DNA from: Glaciozyma antarctica PI12 | Lineage: Eukaryota > Basidiomycota > Microbotryomycetes > Kriegeriales > Camptobasidiaceae | DNA: 64,000 bases | Direction of reading: 5' to 3' | Assembly (NCBI GenBank): GCA_002917775.1 | Contig: KZ627148.1 | Coordinates: 1,279,431 to 1,343,430, forward strand | Part shown: positions 1 through 12,251 of the stretch, piece after piece | How positions within the stretch are numbered: the first letter of the stretch is position 1 | Layout: every line of letters begins with the position of its first letter | Made by a program: the position numbers and the translations under genes | The notes under the pieces: generated by a model | What the model was told of the DNA's origin: nothing | Databases searched by the model: none | What the model saw: only the letters and a program-made list of their open reading frames with translations

Positions 1-143
1 TCTTGAGCAACGCCGTCTTCCAGCTCCCGCCTCTGCAGTCCTCCTCGTCGATCGAAGAACCGCACGCGACCGCGGAGATGCCCCTGGACTTTGATGTGCA
101 ACTCTCGGCAAGTCCCTTCGCACGCACGCCCGAAATGAGCTAG
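1..143 (+). CDS. bZIP transcription factor, left copy, 3' end only
   Basis: The frame starting at position 3 encodes the same 46 or so C-terminal residues as the complete bZIP gene at 8507-9195, ending in ARTPEMS and a TAG at 141-143. Only the tail is visible; the DNA-binding region would lie before the window. The coding part is nearly identical to the right copy (one substitution seen), so duplication or gene conversion is recent. A spliced, longer C-terminus is possible: a phase-0 donor (GTGCAA at 96 or the GC-type GCAAGT at 108) could join to the acceptor ending at 195. That would continue in an open frame to the TGA at 547-549. Confidence 0.75.
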   Translation, partial: LSNAVFQLPPLQSSSSIEEPHATAEMPLDFDVQLSASPFARTPEMS

Positions 144-195
144 ATCCTAGTTTGATCCACCCTCCTCCTTTCTTACGCACCCCCCTCCCTTTCAG

Positions 196-549
196 CCTCT
201 CATTTCAGCTCCCAATCCAACTCAACCGAAAACAATAACCACACCCCACACACCACCACCATTCCACCTCCACTTCAACTTCCAGTTCCCCGGCCTCTCG
301 CAACCGCCCCTCACTTTCGACATGCCGTACAACCCCTCGGAACCCTCGATGCGATCAAGCTCTTTCGCCCCCTCACTTTCGCCCACGTCGACGGATCAAG
401 GAGCGCCGTTACCGGGAGGAGTGGACTGGTTGGCATCGTCGGAGCTGGGGACGAATGGGGTTCGCTCGGGGCGGGGGATGAGCGAGCTGGGCGGCGTGGG
501 TGGTGGGAGTGCTGCGGGCGTTGGTGCGTGGACTATGGCTGCGTTTTGA
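196..549 (+). CDS. Possible C-terminal exon of the left bZIP gene
   Basis: An open frame runs from a pyrimidine-rich CAG acceptor (193-195) to a TGA at 547-549. It encodes a Pro/Ser-rich stretch, an FQFPGLSQPPLTFD segment and a Gly-rich end (VDWLASSELG, then GGVGGG and WTMAAF). The acceptor is retained in the right arm despite many substitutions nearby, and the divergent patch has no indels, which suits coding sequence. An independent small ORF starting at ATG 322 (75 codons) is the other reading. In the right arm a 20-bp tandem duplication puts this frame out of register. RNA evidence is needed to choose between an exon, a separate small gene and 3' UTR. Confidence 0.4.
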   Translation, partial: PLISAPNPTQPKTITTPHTPPPFHLHFNFQFPGLSQPPLTFDMPYNPSEPSMRSSSFAPSLSPTSTDQGAPLPGGVDWLASSELGTNGVRSGRGMSELGGVGGGSAAGVGAWTMAAF

Positions 550-684
550 CTCGTAGGGTCGCCCGTTTTTTTCTCCAACACCCCTCTTGTCCTTCGTCGC
601 TGGCGTCGCGTTCCCCTCCTTTCTGTAGCTGCAGATTCTTCTGCTGATTACCTCTGGCTAGCTTGTATTCATGTAGATGTTTCG

Positions 685-1155
685 TACACCCTCGAAATGG
701 AGAGAAAAGAGAGATTTGAAAGGACTTGGGGGAGAAACTCGGAAACTCAAAGTAACTCCTGACTTTGAATTTACTTACCGCATTATCAAAAGACTACAAA
801 AGTTCGACCAGCGTTTCGCGGTTGGGCTTCGTTCCTTCCCCGACCACACCTCTGCGCTCCCTCTCTGCTCGCCACAGCGTGCCAGTCCTCAGTCGCAGCG
901 CTGCCCTCACGCACCGCCCAAAAGACTCCTGCTCGGCGCTCGCAGGCCATCACAAAGATGACTCACGGGCTTGAGTCCTCTCTCGCGCTCTCGTAACGGC
1001 CGCAGATTCTCCGCCCTCGGCCCAATCAGCGGCGAAGAGCGGTACGGCATTTGGAGGATAAGCGTCCAATCGAGCACTATCTCGCGCAGCTTTCTGCTAT
1101 CGCTCTTTCCCCCATTCTGTCTGCGAGCGTCCTCTTCTGCCTCAACAACTCAACG
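685..1155. other. Intergenic, upstream of permease
   Basis: No supported gene. Short overlapping open frames begin at the edge of the repeat arm but have no recognisable protein character. This segment presumably holds the promoter and 5' leader of the permease; no clear TATA element was picked out. Confidence 0.6.
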
Positions 1156-3618
1156 ATGAAATCAGAATCAAAGCACCAACTATCGGTGGATGAAGCAGCG
1201 CTTGCAGCGCTCGGGTATCGCCAGGAGTTTCGAAGAGTAAGAGGACACTTCTCGGCCTCCTTCTCCACTCTTGACGGTCCTGCCGCAGGAATTCAGCATG
1301 GTCTCGACGATAGCCTTCGCTTTCTCGATTATGGGAGTCGCTGCGAGCGTATCTTCGACGCTCTCCTTTGGTCTGGTGGTGAGCTCTTTCGCAGGAGGGT
1401 TAGCAACCACCGCTGATCTGAATCTGGCTTTTCAGGGCGGGGGACACGTCGGAATCGTGTTCGGCTGGCAAGTAGACACATCCGCAACGGGATTGAGCTC
1501 AGCTAACTCTCAGCTACGCAGGCTCATTCCTGGATTCTTCGTCCTGACCGTCGCATTGGGGCTGGCCGAACTTTGCAGTGGTGCGTTCCCAAGATCCTTT
1601 CTTACGGCCTCGCTGACTCCTTTCCGATTGCAGCGATGCCCACCAACGGTGGCGTGAGTCTTTCCGCTGAACTGAAGATTCGAGCCCGGGTTGATCTCCC
1701 CTCGCAGGTCTACTACTGGGCTCACGCGATGGCGCCAGCTGCATGGGGACCTTACGCAGCGTGGATCACTGGTCCGTCGCGCAAGTTCCTGTGCTCCCTG
1801 AACTTTAGCTGATGCTTGCAACAGGGTACGCGAACTTGACGGGCCAAATCGCCCTGGTGTGCTCGATCGAGTACGCTTGCGCTACCATGATATGTGTCGC
1901 TGTGAGCGCAGCGTCTCCGCTCAGTTTCGCAGAGCAAAGCTGAAGCAGGCGACTTCGACTAGCTGACGGTGGCGTCCGATTTCGAGGTCGAGTACTCGCT
2001 CGCTCAGCAATACGGAATCTTCCTCGCTCTGCTTTGTGCTCGTGAGTCGCTCGCTGTCGTGCGCGGTATCTCGAATGTATTCTTATCAGGCTTCTCTAGA
2101 TGTCTTCCTCTGCTCTTGCGCAACTCGGGTTATGGCTCGACTCAACATGCTTTACGTCGTAATCAAGTGAGTCCTGCGATTTCCAGGAAAGCTTTGCGTG
2201 AAGCTAACTCGCTCGCAGCCTCGGCACAACAATCGCAACGATCATTTGCTTCGCGGCGCTTCCTAAAGAGCACGTCTCCGCCGCGGTAGCTTTCACCAAG
2301 TTCGAGAATGGATCCTCGTGGAGCGGTGGGCTGTCTTTCCTTCTCGCGTTCACCGCACCGTGAGTCCAAATTTTCCGTAACTCACTCAGAATTCCTTCTG
2401 ACTCGATTTCGAACGCAGAATGTGGACGTTGACTGGCTGGGACGCGTAGGTTGACCGGAGCTTTCGCGCAGCACGAAACTGACCTTGCCCTTCGCACAGT
2501 GCAGCTCACGTCACAGAGGAGGTTCCAAACCCTGCAGTGGTTGGTCCCATCGCTATGGTCGTCGCCGTCGTCTCAACCTGGCTTCTCGGTTTCGCCATGC
2601 TCATCGCTACTTCGTTCGCGATTCTCGACGTCGGAGCTCTCCTTGAGACACCTCTCGCACTGCCTATGGCTCAGGTTAGTCTCCATTTATGGCACCAGCG
2701 AGTAACTTGCGCTGATTCTTGGTTCGCAGGTCTATTACGACGTCTTGGGCAAGCGAGGCATGCTTGCGATCTGGAGGTTCGTTTTTTTGCCTCTCCCGGA
2801 CGTCCGGCCGCTAAAATACATCGCGCAGCTTCGTCATTATCGTCCAGTTCGCAACTTGCGCCGCCCAGACAGCCGATGCTAGTAGAGTCGTCTTCGCATT
2901 CGCAAGAGACGGTGCCATTCCTGGCTCTCGCCTGTGGAAGCGAATCAGCCCGCGGACCCAGACGCCCATCTACGCGGTCGTATTCGTCGCGGTCTGCGCA
3001 GCGTTTTTGGGACTCCTCGGGCTCAACCAACAAGCTGGACTGGCGTTGTTTGCGGTCGCAGTCATCTCCCTTTACGTCTCGTACGCCGCCCCGATTCTAC
3101 TCCGCATCACTTCGGGTCGGAATGCACTCAAGCCTGTACGTACTTTTGCTCCAGCCCCTTCGGAATCCAGCTTGCTCATTAGCTCTTCGCGCAGGGCCCT
3201 TTCTCTCTCGGATCGTTTGGAATCCCCGTCGGCGCGGTCGCTGTCGCATGGGTTGTGAGTCGGTTTCCTCCTCCTTCAAATCGAACGCTCATCCCTAGTC
3301 ATACAGACCTTCATCCTCTTTATCCTCCTCTTCCCAGGAGAAGCAGTTCCGAGCGCGGCAGGCGTAAGTCCTTCGCACAAGCGGCGTCCTCGCTCCCGAG
3401 TCGCTGACCATCACTCGCAGATGAACTACGCCGTCGTCGTGCTGGCAACGATCCTCGGAGGAGCCACGCTCTATTGGATCGTCAGCGCGCGTCACTGGTT
3501 CAAGGGACCGATCAGCAACATCGTTGAGGACGCGCCGGTGGTGAGCGACGAGATCTCGGAGGAGAAGTTTGCGAAGGGTTCGGACAAGGCGTCGGTTGTC
3601 GTTAGGGAGGTGCAGTAG
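1156..3618 (+). CDS. GABA/amino-acid permease (APC superfamily)
   Basis: Multi-exon gene for a 12-TM amino acid/choline/GABA permease of the UGA4/HNM1/BAT1 type, importing GABA, polyamines, choline or amino acids across the plasma membrane. Start is MKSESKHQ, followed by the family signature LGYRQEFRREFS at the cytoplasmic N-terminus. Then come SIMGVAASVSSTL and GGHVGIVFGWQ (TM1-2), SAMPTNGGVYYWAH after splicing, TGYANLTGQIALVCS, TLTGWDAAAHVTEEV (the conserved amphipathic family motif), ATCAAQTADASRVVFAFARD and a C-terminal TM pair. It ends with a charged cytosolic tail. Roughly fifteen introns of about 50-65 nt interrupt it. It lies inside the inverted repeat, with a MATE transporter downstream. 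Substrate cannot be fixed from sequence; GABA or a polyamine is favoured by family and by the nearby agmatinase. Confidence 0.9.
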
Positions 3619-3757
3619 AGACTGAGGGGGAACTACTGGCTGGTAAAGACTTTGAGCAAAGGTGGACGTGCGAAGCGCGAAAGACGAGTCGAGGACTCCA
3701 CCCCCTAGTTTTGGTCGCGTCCCTCTTCTCCCAACGCCCCCTCTCGCCGCTTGCAAG

Positions 3758-4771
3758 ATGGAAGAAGCCTCGAGTCTCGCAGCAAACCTATCGGCCCAAT
3801 TCAAGGCTCTCCCTGTCCCCTCCGCCCTGGCCTACTACGCAGGACTCCTCGTCGCGTCCTCCCTCCTCACTCCCCCTCCTTCGTCCACCGCCCGCGACCC
3901 ACAAAAATCCCAGCAGCACCCCACCTCTGCCACCGCTCCCTCAGAACCCACCTCGCCTTCTGGAAGCTCGCCTCGAACCCAGCCGACCTCGCCAGCAACC
4001 ACTCCCGACGCGACGGTCACCTTTCAGCTGCACTTGGCGGCTGTCCGCGAGAGCCTCAGGACGAAGTGCTCCCTAGCTCTCCTGGAGCTCAACCCCTTGG
4101 CTATCGACGAGTGCCTCAAGGAGCTCCTTAGCAAGGAGAAATGTATGAGGGCTCTTGCAGACGCGCAGCTAGTCTACGCGACGCGCACGCAAGACGCACT
4201 GGAGGAGGCCGACCCCAGCGAGGAGGATGAGGAGGAATCTCTCAATATGTACGCGTACGGCTACGACGAAGTAAGCGAGGAGGACGCCCACTCCATCGAC
4301 TGCTCCTCCCCCGTCCTCCCAATCGTACCTCCCACCCCCTCCCTCTCCACCGAACCCCTCCGCCCGACGCGACTTTTCGCCCCCTTCCTCGTCCCTTTCG
4401 TCCCCTCCACCCTTTCCTCCCCCGGCGACCATCTCGACGTGCGTAAAGGAGGTGCGTCGCGCGTGGACGCGCCTGGGAAGCACGTCGTGCCTGAGCTCGT
4501 TGCCGCGGAAGGAAGCAGTAGTTCGAGGAGCTCTACGAGCGAAGATTTCGTGGAGGATATGGGGGACAAAGCTGGTGAGGAGGAGAAGGAAGGCGACGCT
4601 GTGAAGGAGGAGGAGCGAGAGGAGGAGGCGCGGTTGGAGGAGGCGGAGGAGGCTGAGGTACGACGTGGGAAGCGGAAGAGGAAGGGCGTTAAAGTGGAGG
4701 ATGCGGTAGAGAGGGAGGTGGAGGATGCGGGTGCGGGAGGTCGGAATGCGAAGCGGAGGGCGAGGAGATGA
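3758..4771 (+). CDS. Hypothetical acidic/basic-tailed protein
   Basis: Intronless frame of about 337 residues from the ATG at 3758; an in-frame ATG at 3662 would add 32 residues but lies only 44 bp after the permease stop. I do not recognise a family. The N-terminal third has a compact hydrophobic segment (LAYYAGLLVASSLL). A Pro/Ser/Thr-rich linker follows, then a charged helix-like block (LHLAAVRESLRTKCSLALLE through about residue 150), long Asp/Glu-rich stretches, and a basic end (RRGKRKRKGVK, NAKRRARR) that resembles a bipartite nuclear localisation signal. The acidic-plus-basic layout suits a nuclear or chromatin-associated protein, but function is unknown. It is short, disordered and probably lineage-restricted. 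Confidence 0.65.
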   Translation: MEEASSLAANLSAQFKALPVPSALAYYAGLLVASSLLTPPPSSTARDPQKSQQHPTSATAPSEPTSPSGSSPRTQPTSPATTPDATVTFQLHLAAVRESLRTKCSLALLELNPLAIDECLKELLSKEKCMRALADAQLVYATRTQDALEEADPSEEDEEESLNMYAYGYDEVSEEDAHSIDCSSPVLPIVPPTPSLSTEPLRPTRLFAPFLVPFVPSTLSSPGDHLDVRKGGASRVDAPGKHVVPELVAAEGSSSSRSSTSEDFVEDMGDKAGEEEKEGDAVKEEEREEEARLEEAEEAEVRRGKRKRKGVKVEDAVEREVEDAGAGGRNAKRRARR

Positions 4772-5910
4772 GCGAGGGGAGGGCGGTTGGCAGGCGGCCT
4801 GGTGCTGTCTTGGTGTTCTTAGTTCTTAGATATTCCCCTACTTGTATATCCATTGTTAACCCGCATCTTTTTCTGAGGAGGGAGGCGGCCTGACGAGGAG
4901 GCCCGCGAGATTGGTTGGTGCTGCTCTGGCGAGAATGTGGTGCTCCTAGCTGCTCCTTTCTCCTTCGCCCACGCTTTTTCTTCAGGTCCATCTTACGAAA
5001 TCTGGCTTGTTTGCCTTGTAGCGACATCACTTGCAAGCTCTGCAAACCTCCTTGCGAAGAAGCTGAAGCCGATTTTGCACCAGTTTGCGTCGATTGGATG
5101 TTTGGGCAAGCTCGGGCTGCGTAGTGAGGGTTTTCAGCTACTCTGCTGTCGTTTCCGACGTGACAAACGTTCTCAATGCCAGTCTTGAGGCCAACAGCCT
5201 CAAATACGAATCTCGCTCTCCCTCGCTCGCTCTGTGGGCGCTGACTTTAGCCAATGTCTTCCTCGCTCCAGTGGCCGCAGCACAAATCTTAGCGCATGCT
5301 CAAAGACCTTCCGCCATTTCTCTGCCGTAGCAGGCCCAACGCCACACCGTTTCAAAGCGAAATGTCGCTCATTCCTCAAATCTCGCTACTCGACCTGGTA
5401 CGCCCCGTGGGCCTTGAGGTAGCTTCTTACTTCCGTACTTTTCTGGCTGCTTTCGAACGAGTGTACAAGATAGCACTCCCGTTCTGGACGGAGATATTAC
5501 GGCATGTGGTGGCGCAGGGTGGTATCGCTGATACGCCCAAATGAGAAGCTCGCCCGATTCCTGTCGCCAAATTCTGCGCACGATCAGCAAAGGAGCAGAG
5601 CACACAGAAGGAGAGGAGGAGGAGCTCGCGCCGCGAGCTCAAGAAAATTAACTTGCTGTGTGGAGGCTTCAATCTATTTATTCAGGGATTATCAACGCCC
5701 TGTGCTTCCTCTCTCCGCTCCAGGACGTCCCAGTGCTCTCAATGAAAGAGAAAGCTTCGATTAATCTGGTGCTGCCACTTGACTCCACCTGAACGGCAGC
5801 GTGCCGCCGCCAAGTCGTCAAAAGTCAGCGATAACGACGTGCCGGCATCGACTCACTCCCGCTCTCTTCCTCGTCTTGCTCCTCTCTCACCACGCATACC
5901 ACCACCGATA
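4772..5910. other. 1.1-kb intergenic stretch, no supported gene
   Basis: Several 60-85-codon frames overlap here (for example around 4937-5188, 5085-5330 and 5296-5544). None shows a recognisable domain, and none extends through plausible splice sites into a longer product. GC content looks lower than in neighbouring genes. The last 150 bp is presumably the MATE promoter and leader. A decayed gene or a non-coding transcript cannot be excluded. Confidence 0.5.
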
Positions 5911-7850
5911 ATGGGCCCACACAAGAGTTCCACGCTCCGCTCTCACAACGAGCGATCACCTCTGCTCCGCTCCTCCCAACAGCCACCGATCTCATTTGCC
6001 ACCGAGCTCCTTTTTCTCTTCCGCACATCCACACCCGTGGCGCTCTCGTACGCCTTTCAGAACTCACTGGTAGGTTGAAGCGCGTGCGATAAAGTAAGAC
6101 GGACGAGCTGACGATCTCTCTCCCTGCAGCAAACCCTGTCAGTGGTCATCGTCGGGCATCTCGGACCAGCTCAGCTATCTGCCGCCGCATTCTCGTAGTA
6201 CGTTCTCCGTCACTCTTCTTAGAGGCCTCGAGTATTTATCGAACCTTTCTTCAGCATGCTCGCGATGTGTACGGCGTGGTGCGTCGCGTTGGGTGGATCC
6301 ACCGCCGTCGCAAGTCCAGCTCCCGATCCGCCGCTTGCCTTGCGCTGACGACTCTGTTCAGGACACCATCGCATCCGCCATCTACACCAGCAAGTCGGCG
6401 AAGAGAACGGACGTCGGCGTCGTACTTCAACGCTGCCTATTATGCCTCGGTCTTCTATATCTCCCCTTCGCATTGCTGTGGTGGTTCGTCGCTCCGGTCC
6501 TGCTGGCCCTAGGACAGACCCAGGAGCTTTCAGATAACTGCCAGGCGTTTCTACGGATTCTGAGCTTTGGAGCTCCTGGCTACATCGCCTTTGAGAGCGT
6601 CAAGAAGTTCCTCCAGGTCCAAGGTAAGCTCGCCGGCGTCTGCTCCTTCTCCCCCTCGCTGATGATTCTCCAGGAATCATGCACGCGTCGACACTGGTTC
6701 TCCTCTTCACCTCCCCCTTCAACGTCGCCCTTAATTATCTCCTCATCTACCACACTCGGCTGGGATTTCTCGGAGCTCCGGTCGCCACCTCCATCACGTA
6801 CTGGATCTCGTTCTTTCTTTTATGCAGTGAGTTGCTCTCCTCACTGTCCAGTTCAATAGCTGAGCCAGTCTTAAGTGTACTGCAAGTACGTTGACGGGAG
6901 TGCGTGCTGGGGTGGATGGGATCGTCGCTGCCTCGAGCGATGGGGAGCCTTCCTCAAGCTCGCGATCCCCGGAATCCTCCACGTCGGGACGGAGTGGTGC
7001 GTTCTCAACGAGTGTTACGCTTCTTCCCTGACACGCTTTTGTGCGGACTCTCAGGTGGGCATTCGAAATCGTCGCTCTCGCCGCAGGCCGACTCGGCGAC
7101 CTTCCTCTCTCCGCTCAGTCTGTGATCATGACCGTCGACCAAGTCCGTTCCTCCCTCATTCCTTCGTTCAGATTTTATACTCACTTTATCCCTGCAGATC
7201 CTAAACACCCTCCCTTTCGGAATTGGTGTCGCGACCTCAGCTCGTATCGGCAACCTCTTGGGCTCCCAATCCCCCTCTCACGCCCGACTCTCCTCTCATG
7301 CCTCCGTCGCGCTTTCGACAATCTTCGGGGGAGCAGTTCTGGTTGTCCTCATGGCGACGCGCGAGTCGTTCGGCTACCTCTTCAGCAGCGAGGAGGACGT
7401 GGTCCAGCTCGTTGCGGACGTCCTGCCTTACGTTGCTGCGTTCCAGATTGCGGACGGATGGGCTCAGAGGTTCCTTATTCCTGCCAAAACGTTGATGTTA
7501 CTGTGCTGACCTCGTCATTCTCCAGTTGCGGCGGAGTTCTGCGAGGAATGGGCAAGCAGCACGTCGGCGCTGCGGTCAACGTCGTCGCGTACTATCTCTT
7601 CGCTCTCCCCCTCGGAATCTGGTACGTCTTCTCACTTTGATTTATCCAGGACGCTTGCTGACCCCCCTTTCGCAGGCTCGCGTTCAATACTCGTCTCGGC
7701 CTCGCTGGGCTGTGGGTCGGCCAGTGCGCAGCCCTGTTCCTCGCTGGGATTGGGCAGTACGTTCTTGTAGCGTGTACTCGGTGGGAGGTGGAGGTGGAGA
7801 AGGCGGAGGAAAGACTAGAGGAATCGCCAGCTGTGCTGGTGACTGTGTAG
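5911..7850 (+). CDS. MATE family multidrug/metabolite efflux transporter
   Basis: Multi-exon gene for a MATE (DinF/NorM/ERC1-like) proton- or sodium-coupled exporter with 12 TM segments. It starts MGPHKSSTLRSHNERSPLL, a cytosolic N-terminus. Spliced landmarks are FRTSTPVALSYAFQNSLQTL, SVVIVGHLGPAQLSAAAF (TM2), a GGSTALDTIASAIYTSK loop equivalent to the family's DTLCGQAYGA motif, FLRILSFGAPGYIAFESVKK, and FNVALNYLLIYH. The second half begins LKLAIPGILHVGTEWWAFEI and includes FGIGVATSARIGNLLGS and QIADGWAQSCGGVLRGMGKQ. About ten short introns. It sits inside the inverted repeat, downstream of the permease. The substrate is unknown; MATE proteins in other eukaryotes export cationic compounds, agmatine among them. 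Confidence 0.92.
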
Positions 7851-7949
7851 CTAGCGCGTATAGAAGCATTAGATTCTCCCAGACTCGTCTCTCGCTCTCG
7901 CTCTCGCTCTCACTTTGCCGCTTCGTGCCTAAGCCGCTGCTGCTGCGAA

Positions 7950-8650
7950 CGAAACATCTATATAAACACAGCTAGCCAAGGAAGCGGTAAGCACAACTGC
8001 AGCTGCGAAAAAAAAAGAACGCGACGCCAGCGACGAAGGACAAGAGGGGTGTTGGAGAGAAAAACGGGCGACCCTACGAGTCAAAACGCAGCCATAGTCC
8101 ACGCACCAACGCCCGCAGCACTCCCACCACCCACGCCGCCCAGCTCGCTCATCCCCCGCCCCGAGCGAACCCCATTCGTCCCCAGTTCCGACGATGCCAA
8201 CCAGTCCACTCCTCCCGGTAACGGCGCTCCTTGATTCGTCGACGTGGGCGAAAGTGAGGGGGCGAAAGAGCTTGATCGCATCGAGGGTTCCGAGGGGTTG
8301 TAGAGGGTTCCGAGGGGTTGTAGGGCATGTCGAAAGTGAGGGGCGGTTGCGAGAGGCCGGGGAACTGGAAGTTGAAGTGGAGGTGGAAAGGAGGTGGTGC
8401 GAGGGGTGTGGGGAGTGATATCGGTTGAGGAGGGGTGGGAGCTGAACTGAGAAGCTGCAGGAGAGGGGAAGACGGAAGAAAGGAGGAGGGTGGATCAAAC
8501 TAGGATCTAGCTCATTTCGGGCGTGCGTGCGAAGGGACTTGCCGAGAGTTGCACATCAAAGTCGAGGGGCATCTCCGCGGTCGCGTGCGGTTCTTCGATC
8601 GACGAGGAGGACTGCAGAGGCGGGAGCTGGAAGACGGCGTTGCTCAAGAT
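7950..8650 (-). repeat. Right arm of large inverted repeat
   Basis: Reverse complement of 1-684. It holds the last 48 codons of the complete bZIP gene plus about 560 bp beyond its stop. Compared with the left arm it has an exact 20-bp tandem duplication at 8283-8322 and a divergent ungapped patch at about 8384-8485. A homopurine run near 8010 differs too. The side facing the MATE gene fades out at about 7950. The stretch between the MATE stop (7850) and the bZIP stop (8507) holds nothing else that I can support. Confidence 0.93.
8283..8322. repeat. 20-bp perfect tandem duplication in right arm
   Basis: The unit GAGGGTTCCGAGGGGTTGTA occurs twice back to back (8283-8302 and 8303-8322); the left arm has only one copy. 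Because 20 is not a multiple of three, the possible C-terminal bZIP exon is read in a different frame downstream in this copy. Confidence 0.95.
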
Positions 8651-9195
8651 TGCCGACGAGCTTGCAGTTGCAGTCGGGTCCTGGCCGTAGAAGTAGGCGC
8701 TCGCGTCCTGCGTTGGCATCTGTGGGAAATAAAGCGTACTAGGATCTAGCTGGAGAGGGGCAGAAAGGAATGCACTCGCCGATACGTCGTCGTCAAAGGG
8801 ACTCGTGCGGAGGCTGGCCTGGTAGGATTCGTAGGTGGAGGCGGGCGGCGAGGGTAGCGATGGAGGGGACGCCGTGGCTGATGCTTGGAGAGCTTCGATC
8901 TGCCCGTACAGGCAGTCGATCGTGCATCGCAAGTCGGCGTTCTCCTTGACGAGCGAGTCGACCTTGACGAGGAGAGCGCCATCGTCGAAGGAAGATGGAC
9001 TGCCGCGTTCGCTCTCGTAGGCCTGGATCTGCTCCTCGAGGCTCTTGATGTAGGCGGCCTTGCGCTCTCGGTGAGCCTTCTGCGCCTGTTGGAGGAGCGC
9101 GTGGGGTCAGCCCGTGCGTCTCTGGAGAGGGCGAGCGGAGGACGGACCTTGGCGTTACGGCTGCGCTCCTTCTCGGACACCTTTTCCAAAGGCAT
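8507..9195 (-). CDS. bZIP transcription factor (right copy)
   Basis: Nuclear DNA-binding regulator. The start ATG (9195) encodes MPLEKVSEKERSRNAK. A single intron (about 9098-9159) then joins to AQKAHRERKAAYIKSLEEQI, giving the fungal Yap/AP1-type basic region NAxAQxAxRERK directly at the N-terminus. Next comes a leucine-zipper-like heptad region (IQAYESER through LVKENADLRCTIDCLYGQIE), then a Ser/Pro/Ala-rich tail ending ARTPEMS. It is head-to-head with the agmatinase gene across about 560 bp. The leader holds a 22-codon upstream ORF and a probable intron acceptor (CACCAG) just before the start. A spliced C-terminal extension into the repeat arm is possible, but here it would be shifted by the 20-bp duplication. 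Confidence 0.85.
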
Positions 9196-9756
9196 TACGG
9201 CGGGTACGGCTGGTGGATAAGGGCACGGGGTCAGCAGCGGTCGCAAAGCTCTTATCGGAAAGGTGCGATGCCGTACAAGATCGGGCGAGGTGGGAAGCGG
9301 CGAAGGGGCGCGGTCGAGTGTGACTGCTGAGTTGGCGTAGGAGTAAGGCGCTTCTGCTTAAGAATCCCTGGAGGTCGTGCTGGAGGGGAGAAGGTTGAGG
9401 AGGAAGAGAGCGATGTTCGAAGTCATTACAGAAACAACTCTCACACTACAAAACTAATTCTTTGACTACAACAGTTTCTATTCGGCTAAAGCCCAGCTTG
9501 AAGAATCTCGGCCGCCTTCGGCTGTTCTCCTCCTGTGCTGACTGCTCCTGGGCTGACACCACGACGTACTGCTCTGACTGCTCTCGAGTCCAAGCTGCTT
9601 CTAAGACGATTCAAGCGGACTTTGTTCGACCTCGCGCGGTCACGATAACGCCCAGCGAGCCGCAATCAAGCGTACCAACGTAACGCTCTCCTCCCAGGCG
9701 AGGATGCTCGACCGATTACCTCTCTGCTTTCTCAACGACACCCCGAGCTCGACAGG
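9196..9756. promoter_or_regulatory. Divergent bZIP-agmatinase promoter region
   Basis: This 561-bp interval separates the bZIP start from the agmatinase start, so both genes are transcribed outward from it. It is relatively A+T-rich around 9425-9480. It contains the bZIP uORF and a likely 5'-leader intron acceptor. No specific bZIP site could be assigned with confidence. Confidence 0.6.
9358..9426 (-). promoter_or_regulatory. 22-codon upstream ORF in bZIP leader
   Basis: ATG at 9426 to TAA at 9358-9360 encodes MTSNIALFLLNLLPSSTTSR plus Asp-Ser. It contains no internal GT, so it cannot be a spliced first coding exon, and it sits about 160 bp upstream of the bZIP start. Fungal bZIP regulators (GCN4/CPC1, YAP2) are known for uORF-based translational control; whether this one acts that way is inference. 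Confidence 0.45.
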
Positions 9757-11720
9757 ATGAAGCCCATCACCTCGATCCCCCTTCTTCTGCTGTCTTCGGC
9801 CCTCGCAATCGCTTCTCCCTACTACGCCGAGCACAACCACATCGAGGAGCACGACCACGTCGGTCACTCTCACGGAGAGCAGATGCCGTTGGGATAGTAA
9901 GTCCTCGCATCAAGTACTGACGAGCATTCGGCTGACCTCGAGTGCGCAGCGTCAAGTTCCCGACTCAGTACTCCAAGTGCACCCCTCCGCTTCGCAAGCG
10001 AGTGACAACGCTGACACGCACTCGCAGGCCGATTTTCTACAAGGAAGGAGCTGGAGGTCATGAGCAGGGATCTTACATGCGCGGAGACGTTCCCGGTGAC
10101 GGAGAAACGACGGCCGACGCCATCTTTAGCGGGATTGGCACCTTCGCTCACTTGCCTTTCGTCTCGTGCTTCAAGAGTAACGAGACCTTTGACATTGCGT
10201 TCCTAGGGTGAGCTTACGTCACTTGCGGTGGTAGAGGATGGCGCTAAAGTACGCTCCTTCGCAGGCTTCCCTTTGACACTGGAACCTCTTACCGCCCTGG
10301 AGCTCGCTTCGGTCCCTCCGTTAGTCCTTCTCCCTCCGCCCGAGGATGATCGCTAATCTACATCGCACGTAGGGAATCCGTCAAGGATCTCGTCGCTTGA
10401 CGCTGTACGGCGGGTACAATGTGCCTCTCGCTGTGAACCCTTTTCGCTCATGGGCGAAGCTCGTTGATTGCGGCGACGTGTGAGTCATTTCTTCGGCCTT
10501 GCTCCCTCTTAAAGAAAGCTAACGAGCGCGCGCGCAGTCCCGTCACGCCCTACGATTCAGCGTTCGCGATCAAGCAGATGGAGATTGGCCACAAGGAGCT
10601 CATGCATCGTCCCGCGCACTCGGTCGCTCACGAGGTGAACGCCGACGGCAGCATGAACAAGGTCGTCGGTCTCGGAAAGACTGGTGCCGTTCATCCTCGC
10701 GTTATTTCCCTCGGAGGAGACCACACCGTCGTCCTTCCCATCCTGCGCTCGATCAACTCGGTCTACGGCCCCATCAGTGGTGAGCCCTCGCTCCTCCTCC
10801 TCCCTCGCTGGTCAGCGTTTCTGATGCTGCGTCCTCCAGTGATTCACTTTGACTCGCACCTGGACACCTGTGAGCTGTTCGAAACGCCTCGCTCGAGGAC
10901 TGAGCTGATTTCGGCGTTCCATCGCAGGGAAGCCCTCGGTCTTTGGTGGCTCGCCTTCTGAAGTCGCCTCGATCAACCACGGCACCTACTGTGAGCGTTC
11001 TCTGCTTCTCCGCTCTCTCAACATCGCTGACCACCAGCTGGCAGTCTACCACGCTGCTCAAGAAGGACTGGTCGCGAACGGCACGAGCATCCATGCTGGA
11101 ATTCGCACCACTCTCTCCGGCCCTTCGGACTACGACAAGTGCGTCGTCCTTTCTTTTACCTCGTCTACAGCCACTAACGCACTTGTCCTCAGCGACAAGG
11201 ACTGCGGATTCACTCTCATGGAGGCTCGCGCGATTGATTCGGTCGGTACCCAAGGCATTATCGACAAGATTCGCGCGACCGTTGGCGATACTCCAGTCTA
11301 CCTATGTGAGTGGATTCTCCAAGAGTTTTTGCGCCTTCGCTGACCCGCTGCTCTCCACAGCCATCGACATCGACGTCCTTGATCCTTCAGCGGCTCCCGC
11401 GACTGGAACGCCCGAGACTGGTGCGTCTTCTCCCCTCTCGCTCAGCTCACATCCCTAACGATCTGAACTTGGAGGTGGATGGTCCACTCGCGAGCTCCGC
11501 ACCATCATTCGAGGACTCGAAGGACTTCTCATCGTTGGTGCCGACGTCGTCGAGGTGAGCTTCGCAAGGTGCATTCCGTCGCGCGAGATGCTGATTCGGT
11601 ACTCTCCAGGTCGCCACGCCTTACGATTCGCAAGCTGAGCTCACCGTACTCGCTGCCGCCGACGTCCTGTACGAGGTCATGTCTCTCATGGTCCTCAAGG
11701 GACCCCTCGTGGCGCAGTGA
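9757..11720 (+). CDS. Agmatinase (ureohydrolase), probably secreted
   Basis: Hydrolyses agmatine to putrescine and urea, or a related guanidino compound. The ATG at 9757 opens a hydrophobic signal peptide (MKPITSIPLLLLSSALAIA), then a His-rich mature N-terminus (EHNHIEEHDHVGHSHG). The arginase/agmatinase fold follows: FSGIGTFAHLPFV, LPFDTGTSYRPGARFGPSGI and VNPFRSWAKLVDCGDV. Every expected Mn ligand motif is present: SLGGDHTVVLP, VIHFDSHLDTW (W codon formed by splicing) and LSIDIDVLDPSAAPATGTPE. The end is VLYEVMSLMVLKGPLVAQ. Roughly ten short introns. This matches the fungal extracellular/vacuolar agmatinase group more than cytosolic arginase. It is divergent from the bZIP gene; its last 19 codons are copied in a downstream tandem duplication. 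Confidence 0.9.
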
Positions 11721-12001
11721 CCCGAAAGCAAATTAGCCAGTCCCCGTATATCTCTTGCAAATCGTGTGTGCGCTTGCTGTAGTCTCTTCTGAAGCTTTTG
11801 AAAACAAACCTGAAACCAGCGTATGCCTCGGACATCCTGTACGAGGTCATGTCTCTCATGGTCCTCAAGGGACCCCTCGTGGCGCAGTGACCCGAAAGCA
11901 AATTAGCCAGTCCCCGTATATCTCTTGCAAATCGTGTGTGCGCTTGCTGTAGTCTCTTCTGAAGCTTTTGGAGACAAACCTGCGACCGGCGTATGTCTCG
12001 G
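11662..12001. repeat. 170-bp tandem duplication over agmatinase 3' end
   Basis: Two copies of a 170-bp unit lie side by side (about 11662-11831 and 11832-12001), differing at only a handful of positions. The first contains the last agmatinase codons, the stop and the start of the 3' UTR; the second repeats them as untranslated sequence. High identity indicates a recent event. Confidence 0.93.
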
Positions 12002-12251
12002 CCAGCGAACCCTTCACTTTCTCGATCCCCCCTCACAGCAATTCCTGGCTGAGATCCTCACGCCTGAACCGCTGCGCTGTCGTACCTCTCTCGCTTCCTC
12101 TCGCCGAGCACGACCTGAGCGATCGCACAGACGGCTCTTCCGCGCCCGTCGCCGTGAGCGCCACCATCGACTCCGCTGGAGATCCAAGCTGTGCGCTCGG
12201 AGAGACTGTGACAAGCAGGGAACTAGGGGAAGTGGTTTCTATTGCGAGGGC
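11721..12251. other. Agmatinase-CARNMT1 convergent spacer
   Basis: Intergenic stretch between two convergent genes. The first half is the second unit of the 170-bp duplication. The rest (about 12002-12251) contains small open frames on both strands without protein character, so no gene is called. Confidence 0.6.

Follow-up and report, generated by a model that had tools for sequence, protein, structure and literature searches.

Does the cluster of transporter genes at the left end of this stretch of DNA (the window, 64,000 nucleotides, C3:1279431-1343430) lie between inverted gene copies that might flip it, and how would such copies have come about? Our sample was a single genome assembly (19.98 Mb in 18 contigs) with one orientation of the cassette available, and the comparisons of repeats, N runs, and homopolymers cover 284 kb of the same contig as the window.

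A transporter cassette between inverted bZIP gene ends

A sequence-only reading of the locus had placed inverted arms at 1-684 and 7950-8650, and our alignment puts them at 1-685 and 7949-8649; in a genome search with 1-684, these were the only two places found (E 1.1e-278, 90% identity over 684 nt). The overall layout runs as unique flank, inverted copy, 7.3-kb cassette, copy, and unique flank, and the arms consist of the following parts.

1..685, plus strand: left arm, the 3' end of a bZIP gene copy with downstream sequence, beginning directly after 1,026 N
7949..8649, minus strand: right arm, the inverted copy of 1-685
175..261, plus strand: arm island, with 23 of the 28 arm mismatches, separated from the N run by 174 nt
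624..685, plus strand: inner arm edge, which contains indels and where identity drops to 48/57 at the ungapped positions
8283..8322, minus strand: 20-bp unit, two tandem copies in the right arm and one in the left

The remaining arm outside the island holds 5 mismatches in 526 nt and one 20-bp indel, and outside such islands the copies are about 99% alike. More specifically, the 20-bp indel and four bases set the stretch 262-613 apart from its right-arm counterpart, and for this reason it is not merely made up of right-arm reads. Moreover, the alignment score of the inner edge at 624-685 was reached by 0 of 2000 shuffles. Together, the differences in 262-613 and the homologous edge support a true inverted copying of the bZIP 3' region. 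Near-identical inverted repeats of protein genes are found at both ends of the segment, the left copy being unread in its middle. Homogenisation of the arms is hinted at, in the one strain seen, solely by the fall in identity from about 99% to 48/57 at the inner edge.

Between the arms, three genes make up the cassette, and these are followed by two neighbours.

1156..3618, plus strand: amino acid permease of 526 aa, hand-modelled with 17 exons
3758..4771, plus strand: single-exon frame, 337 aa, without a Pfam family above the cut-off
5911..7850, plus strand: MATE exporter of 482 aa, hand-modelled with 10 exons
8507..9195, minus strand: right bZIP gene, hand-modelled with two exons, product of 208 aa
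9757..11720, plus strand: agmatinase/arginase-family gene, hand-modelled with 12 exons, product of 450 aa (Arginase, E 2e-80)
11654..12001, plus strand: tandem repeat, a 178-nt match at 95%, with the last ~20 codons of the agmatinase gene, its stop, and 3' flank

Rather as expected from the sequence-only reading, Pfam identifies the outer two cassette genes as a permease (AA_permease_2, E 5.5e-59) and a MATE exporter (MatE, E 6.3e-56), and for the 337-aa protein between them the best Pfam match (A_thal_3526, E 0.022) falls under the cut-off. By DNA search, the cassette is found once in the genome, and C6 carries a MATE relative that is only distantly similar (31-52% identity). When 8600-12100 and the cassette were used as queries against the genome DNA, they matched themselves and the places flanking the N run only; no further copy of the repeat or cassette was found in this search, where zero matches are not proof of rarity. 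Apparent GC instead of GT intron starts were noticed at window positions 1468 (permease) and 6310 (MATE).

The absence of a transposase or integrase nearby, as claimed earlier, stands for the permease and MATE genes, which are not recombinases, and is left less certain by the familyless third gene; within the scope covered, which is the cassette genes with the adjoining bZIP and agmatinase, no recombinase was recognised by Pfam. Nor does the segment look like a transposon with terminal inverted repeats, as the cassette occurs once in the genome and no transposase was recognised among its three genes.

That both arms carry an inward-reading 3' end, and that it comes from one and the same bZIP gene, was likewise confirmed. 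The right bZIP gene matches bZIP_1 with E 3.6e-06 and 27.4 bits, just below the cut-off of 27.6, and its protein as a query found matches at these two places only in the genome (E <=0.001). Both bZIP ends encode the same protein up to the first in-frame stop, with one silent difference. One open frame with good codon usage before the 20-bp site suggests a further bZIP exon downstream of the first stop, but none stands out after the site, and six alternative splice choices give readings of 294 to 370 aa. Two alternative bZIP C-termini, as put forward by the sequence-only reading, are therefore possible but weakly grounded, in that the protein is identical up to the first stop and only the 20-bp duplication beyond it could alter the C-terminus, and then only if a further exon is used.

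The N run and the sequence on either side of it

The agmatinase gene follows the right bZIP gene on its right-hand side and lies outside the right arm. More conspicuously, its 3' 329 nt recur beyond the 1,026 N that stand directly left of window base 1: the 329 bases left of this N run match window 11392-11720 in inverted orientation, with 89% identity, and end at the agmatinase stop codon. Because agmatinase sequence recurs in this way, the repeat unit comprises parts of a bZIP-agmatinase pair, and the earlier view of a repeat limited to bZIP 3' ends has to be given up for a larger one, whose left copy is interrupted by the N run. Both gene pieces flank the N run in the expected order and orientation. 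Between the matching points there are 2,742 bases in the right copy versus 1,026 N in the left, so the left copy may be shorter (an internal deletion) or the number of N may misstate the true gap. We take the N run to be an assembly gap, though N could also mark a withheld stretch. The missing left-copy sequence was found nowhere else by genome DNA search, the three matches being the query and two local ones, and here again zero matches are not proof of rarity. Distant agmatinase relatives are carried in pieces by C4, at 43-58% identity, and as a single piece by C5, at 33%. A gene left of the N run looks transporter-like by eye, but two reading-frame pieces from it were without a Pfam match.

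Counted from the N run, 29 of the 31 mismatches in the left agmatinase piece fall at 179-267, with the other 2 in 240 nt. Both flanks of the N run accordingly follow the same plan, in which 174 (bZIP side) and 178 nt (agmatinase side) with 1 and 2 mismatches are followed by 87 and 89 nt with 23 and 29, and then by near-identical sequence. From the island to the unique flank, the clean agmatinase sequence amounts to about 60 nt, and since this stretch is present twice in the right-hand tandem repeat, a false extension by the assembler is possible there. Support for the agmatinase copy, with its ~60 clean bases and an island-bearing stretch, is thus thinner than that for the bZIP copy.

The mismatches were compared with their surroundings in a neighbour test, which asks whether the mismatched left base equals a base adjoining the site in the right copy. 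The feature of interest is the following.

L004 8708-8796: left-of-N island, 89 bases, whose mismatches to the right copy equal the neighbouring base

In the left agmatinase piece, all 31 of 31 mismatches equal a neighbouring base, where 15.7 are expected (P 1.1e-10), and the reverse test on the same piece gave 10 versus 8.3 expected (P 0.3). For 28 of these 31, it is the following base in gene orientation, being the preceding base on the scaffold plus strand, that is copied; 12 equal the other neighbour and 9 equal both. As comparators, three alignments drawn from two further inverted repeats on this contig gave 43/119 (52.0 expected), 16/32 (14.0), and 21/38 (17.0). Furthermore, the fraction of bases that are the same as the previous one is highest in the left agmatinase island (0.50) when the 284 kb are cut into 270,916 overlapping windows of 95 nt free of N, and it rises to 0.41 right of the N run (60-nt windows). 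The 284 kb contain one further N run, beside which it is <=0.31, with no homopolymer rise.

We read the left-of-N island as base-calling error, with probably one or few reads behind it. Ordinary intron divergence was considered for this island and rejected, as the matching part of the right copy extends from an intron into coding sequence and the altered bases copy their neighbours. Sanger read ends can resemble preceding-base errors. For Illumina reads, erroneous bases are described as biased to the identity of the preceding base (PMC8002175), and the 28/31 mismatches that copy the preceding plus-strand base resemble the preceding-base or phasing errors in that account, though the platform used here may differ. 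More generally, looking for mismatches that copy the neighbouring base is a simple check, and it helps to tell evolved differences between repeats from base-calling error beside gaps.

In the arm, the neighbour test gave 15/28 versus 10.7 expected, which is non-significant (P 0.056). Possibly, the arm island at 175-261 is low-quality read sequence, or else an unconverted or diverged patch; it may be the same type of error as the left-of-N island, or true divergence. An assembly artefact in the left arm, named by the sequence-only reading as what would undo it, is borne out in part, given the clear error island left of the N run; the island right of it shows no significant signature.

Origin of the inverted repeat

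As the best reading, and one to which we give a slightly better than even chance, we propose an inverted duplication of the bZIP-agmatinase pair around the 7.3-kb cassette. Here, the pair would have been duplicated in inverted orientation, with at least both of its ends now lying on either side of the cassette. The N run would be a gap over the unread middle of the left copy, left as such presumably because this middle is nearly identical to the right copy, and the mismatches on its left side, perhaps on its right side too, would be read errors. The near-identical core next to the older-looking edge at 624-685 would reflect either gene conversion between the arms or a recent duplication. Geometrically, a crossover between the arms would invert the whole cassette, as had been pointed out from the letters alone, and homologous recombination could occasionally bring this about as a by-product; judged from this arrangement, cassette flipping is possible.

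Alternatively, the repeat may be the product and not the cause of an inversion. Staggered breaks, one of them with a long overhang over the bZIP-agmatinase region, would have inverted the cassette and left the pair copied at both ends, with the repeat a fixed scar of a past event. The order of flank, inverted copy, cassette, copy, and flank fits such an origin, as do the inverted copies found at both ends of the segment. The two other dispersed repeat pairs in the 284 kb are inverted as well, about 4.5 to 7 kb apart, although two pairs are too few for a rate, and their both being inverted, a small number in any case, fits either duplication or staggered breaks. In all, we regard this origin as rather unlikely. 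A partial assembly artefact would be another way to arrive at the same picture, with a short, old, and true copy (bZIP sequence from ~262 inward and ~60 nt of agmatinase) having been extended gapward with right-copy reads, so that the outer portions of the left copy would be absent from this place. While the mismatch plan shared by both N-run flanks and the base-calling signature of the left island, together with the other N run whose flanks lack a homopolymer rise, are in keeping with this, two gene pieces in the correct order and orientation are what a true copy predicts, and the stretch 262-613 departs from the right arm in its 20-bp indel and four bases. An artefact of this kind also appears improbable to us.

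Least of all do we expect a regulated inversion switch, in which the cassette flip would be a dedicated on/off control for the transporters or the bZIP protein, and we consider it very unlikely indeed. Its appeal lies in the geometry alone, with near-identical inverted arms around a cassette. However, no recombinase was recognised among the cassette genes, one of the three being without a family, and the bZIP protein ends are identical up to the first stop. Moreover, since each transporter gene lies wholly within the cassette, a flip would not obviously switch the transporters.

Likeness to known inversions and other repeats of the contig

Of known cases, the closest to the locus is the flip/flop region of Saccharomyces chromosome XIV, where 24 kb lie between 4.2-kb inverted repeats with two genes per copy (PMC9731477). 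According to its authors, those repeats are homogenised by gene conversion and the inversion is a by-product; in the passages of that paper on which we draw, crossing over is described and no dedicated recombinase is invoked (PMC9731477). Shared with the flip/flop region as so described is a near-identical inverted gene-pair repeat around a multi-gene segment. In contrast, the genes here are bZIP and agmatinase, the segment measures 7.3 kb, the left copy is incomplete, and one orientation is seen in one genome. With respect to staggered breaks, the published Drosophila inversions have duplicated pieces of a few hundred bp to 8 kb that can hold whole genes (PMC4965816). The locus resembles these cases, as far as that account describes them, in its inverted gene-bearing copies at both ends and in a size within the published range (PMC4965816), and differs in being fungal, in its small segment, and in resting on the gene order of a single genome.

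By analogy with Saccharomyces, the locus might be a basidiomycete-yeast counterpart of flip/flop, with a gene-pair repeat kept alike by gene conversion and repeatedly inverting a transporter cassette in natural populations, but we hold this to be doubtful. The arrangement as such is already known in other yeasts, and the locus is a possible further case. If the left copy is real, it would add a case, from a non-Saccharomyces fungus, in which an inverted repeat of two genes surrounds a small segment, and the homogenisation and flipping of such repeats can then be asked about outside Saccharomyces. A search of the literature on inverted-repeat inversion polymorphism in basidiomycetes, made by topic and not by locus name, gave none on this locus among the matches listed.

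Searched in six frames, the whole genome gave nothing for the aromatic ammonia-lyase family (PF00221), a result that would be unexpected for a Rhodotorula and speaks against that genus. Dispersed repeats in the 284 kb were sought by blastn (E 1e-10, low-complexity filter on). Besides the pair described above, only two dispersed pairs were found there, both inverted, and the only direct pair is a local tandem repeat. One of the two is an inverted gene repeat at C3:1078863-1080167 and 1084645-1085968 (L011-L012), 89% identical with patchy identity and 4.5 kb apart; the one long frame scanned there (L012 5230-6420) had zero Pfam matches. The other, at C3:1097148-1097830 and 1103422-1104170, is an inverted repeat with 79-82% identity in its longer pieces and about 6 kb between the copies.
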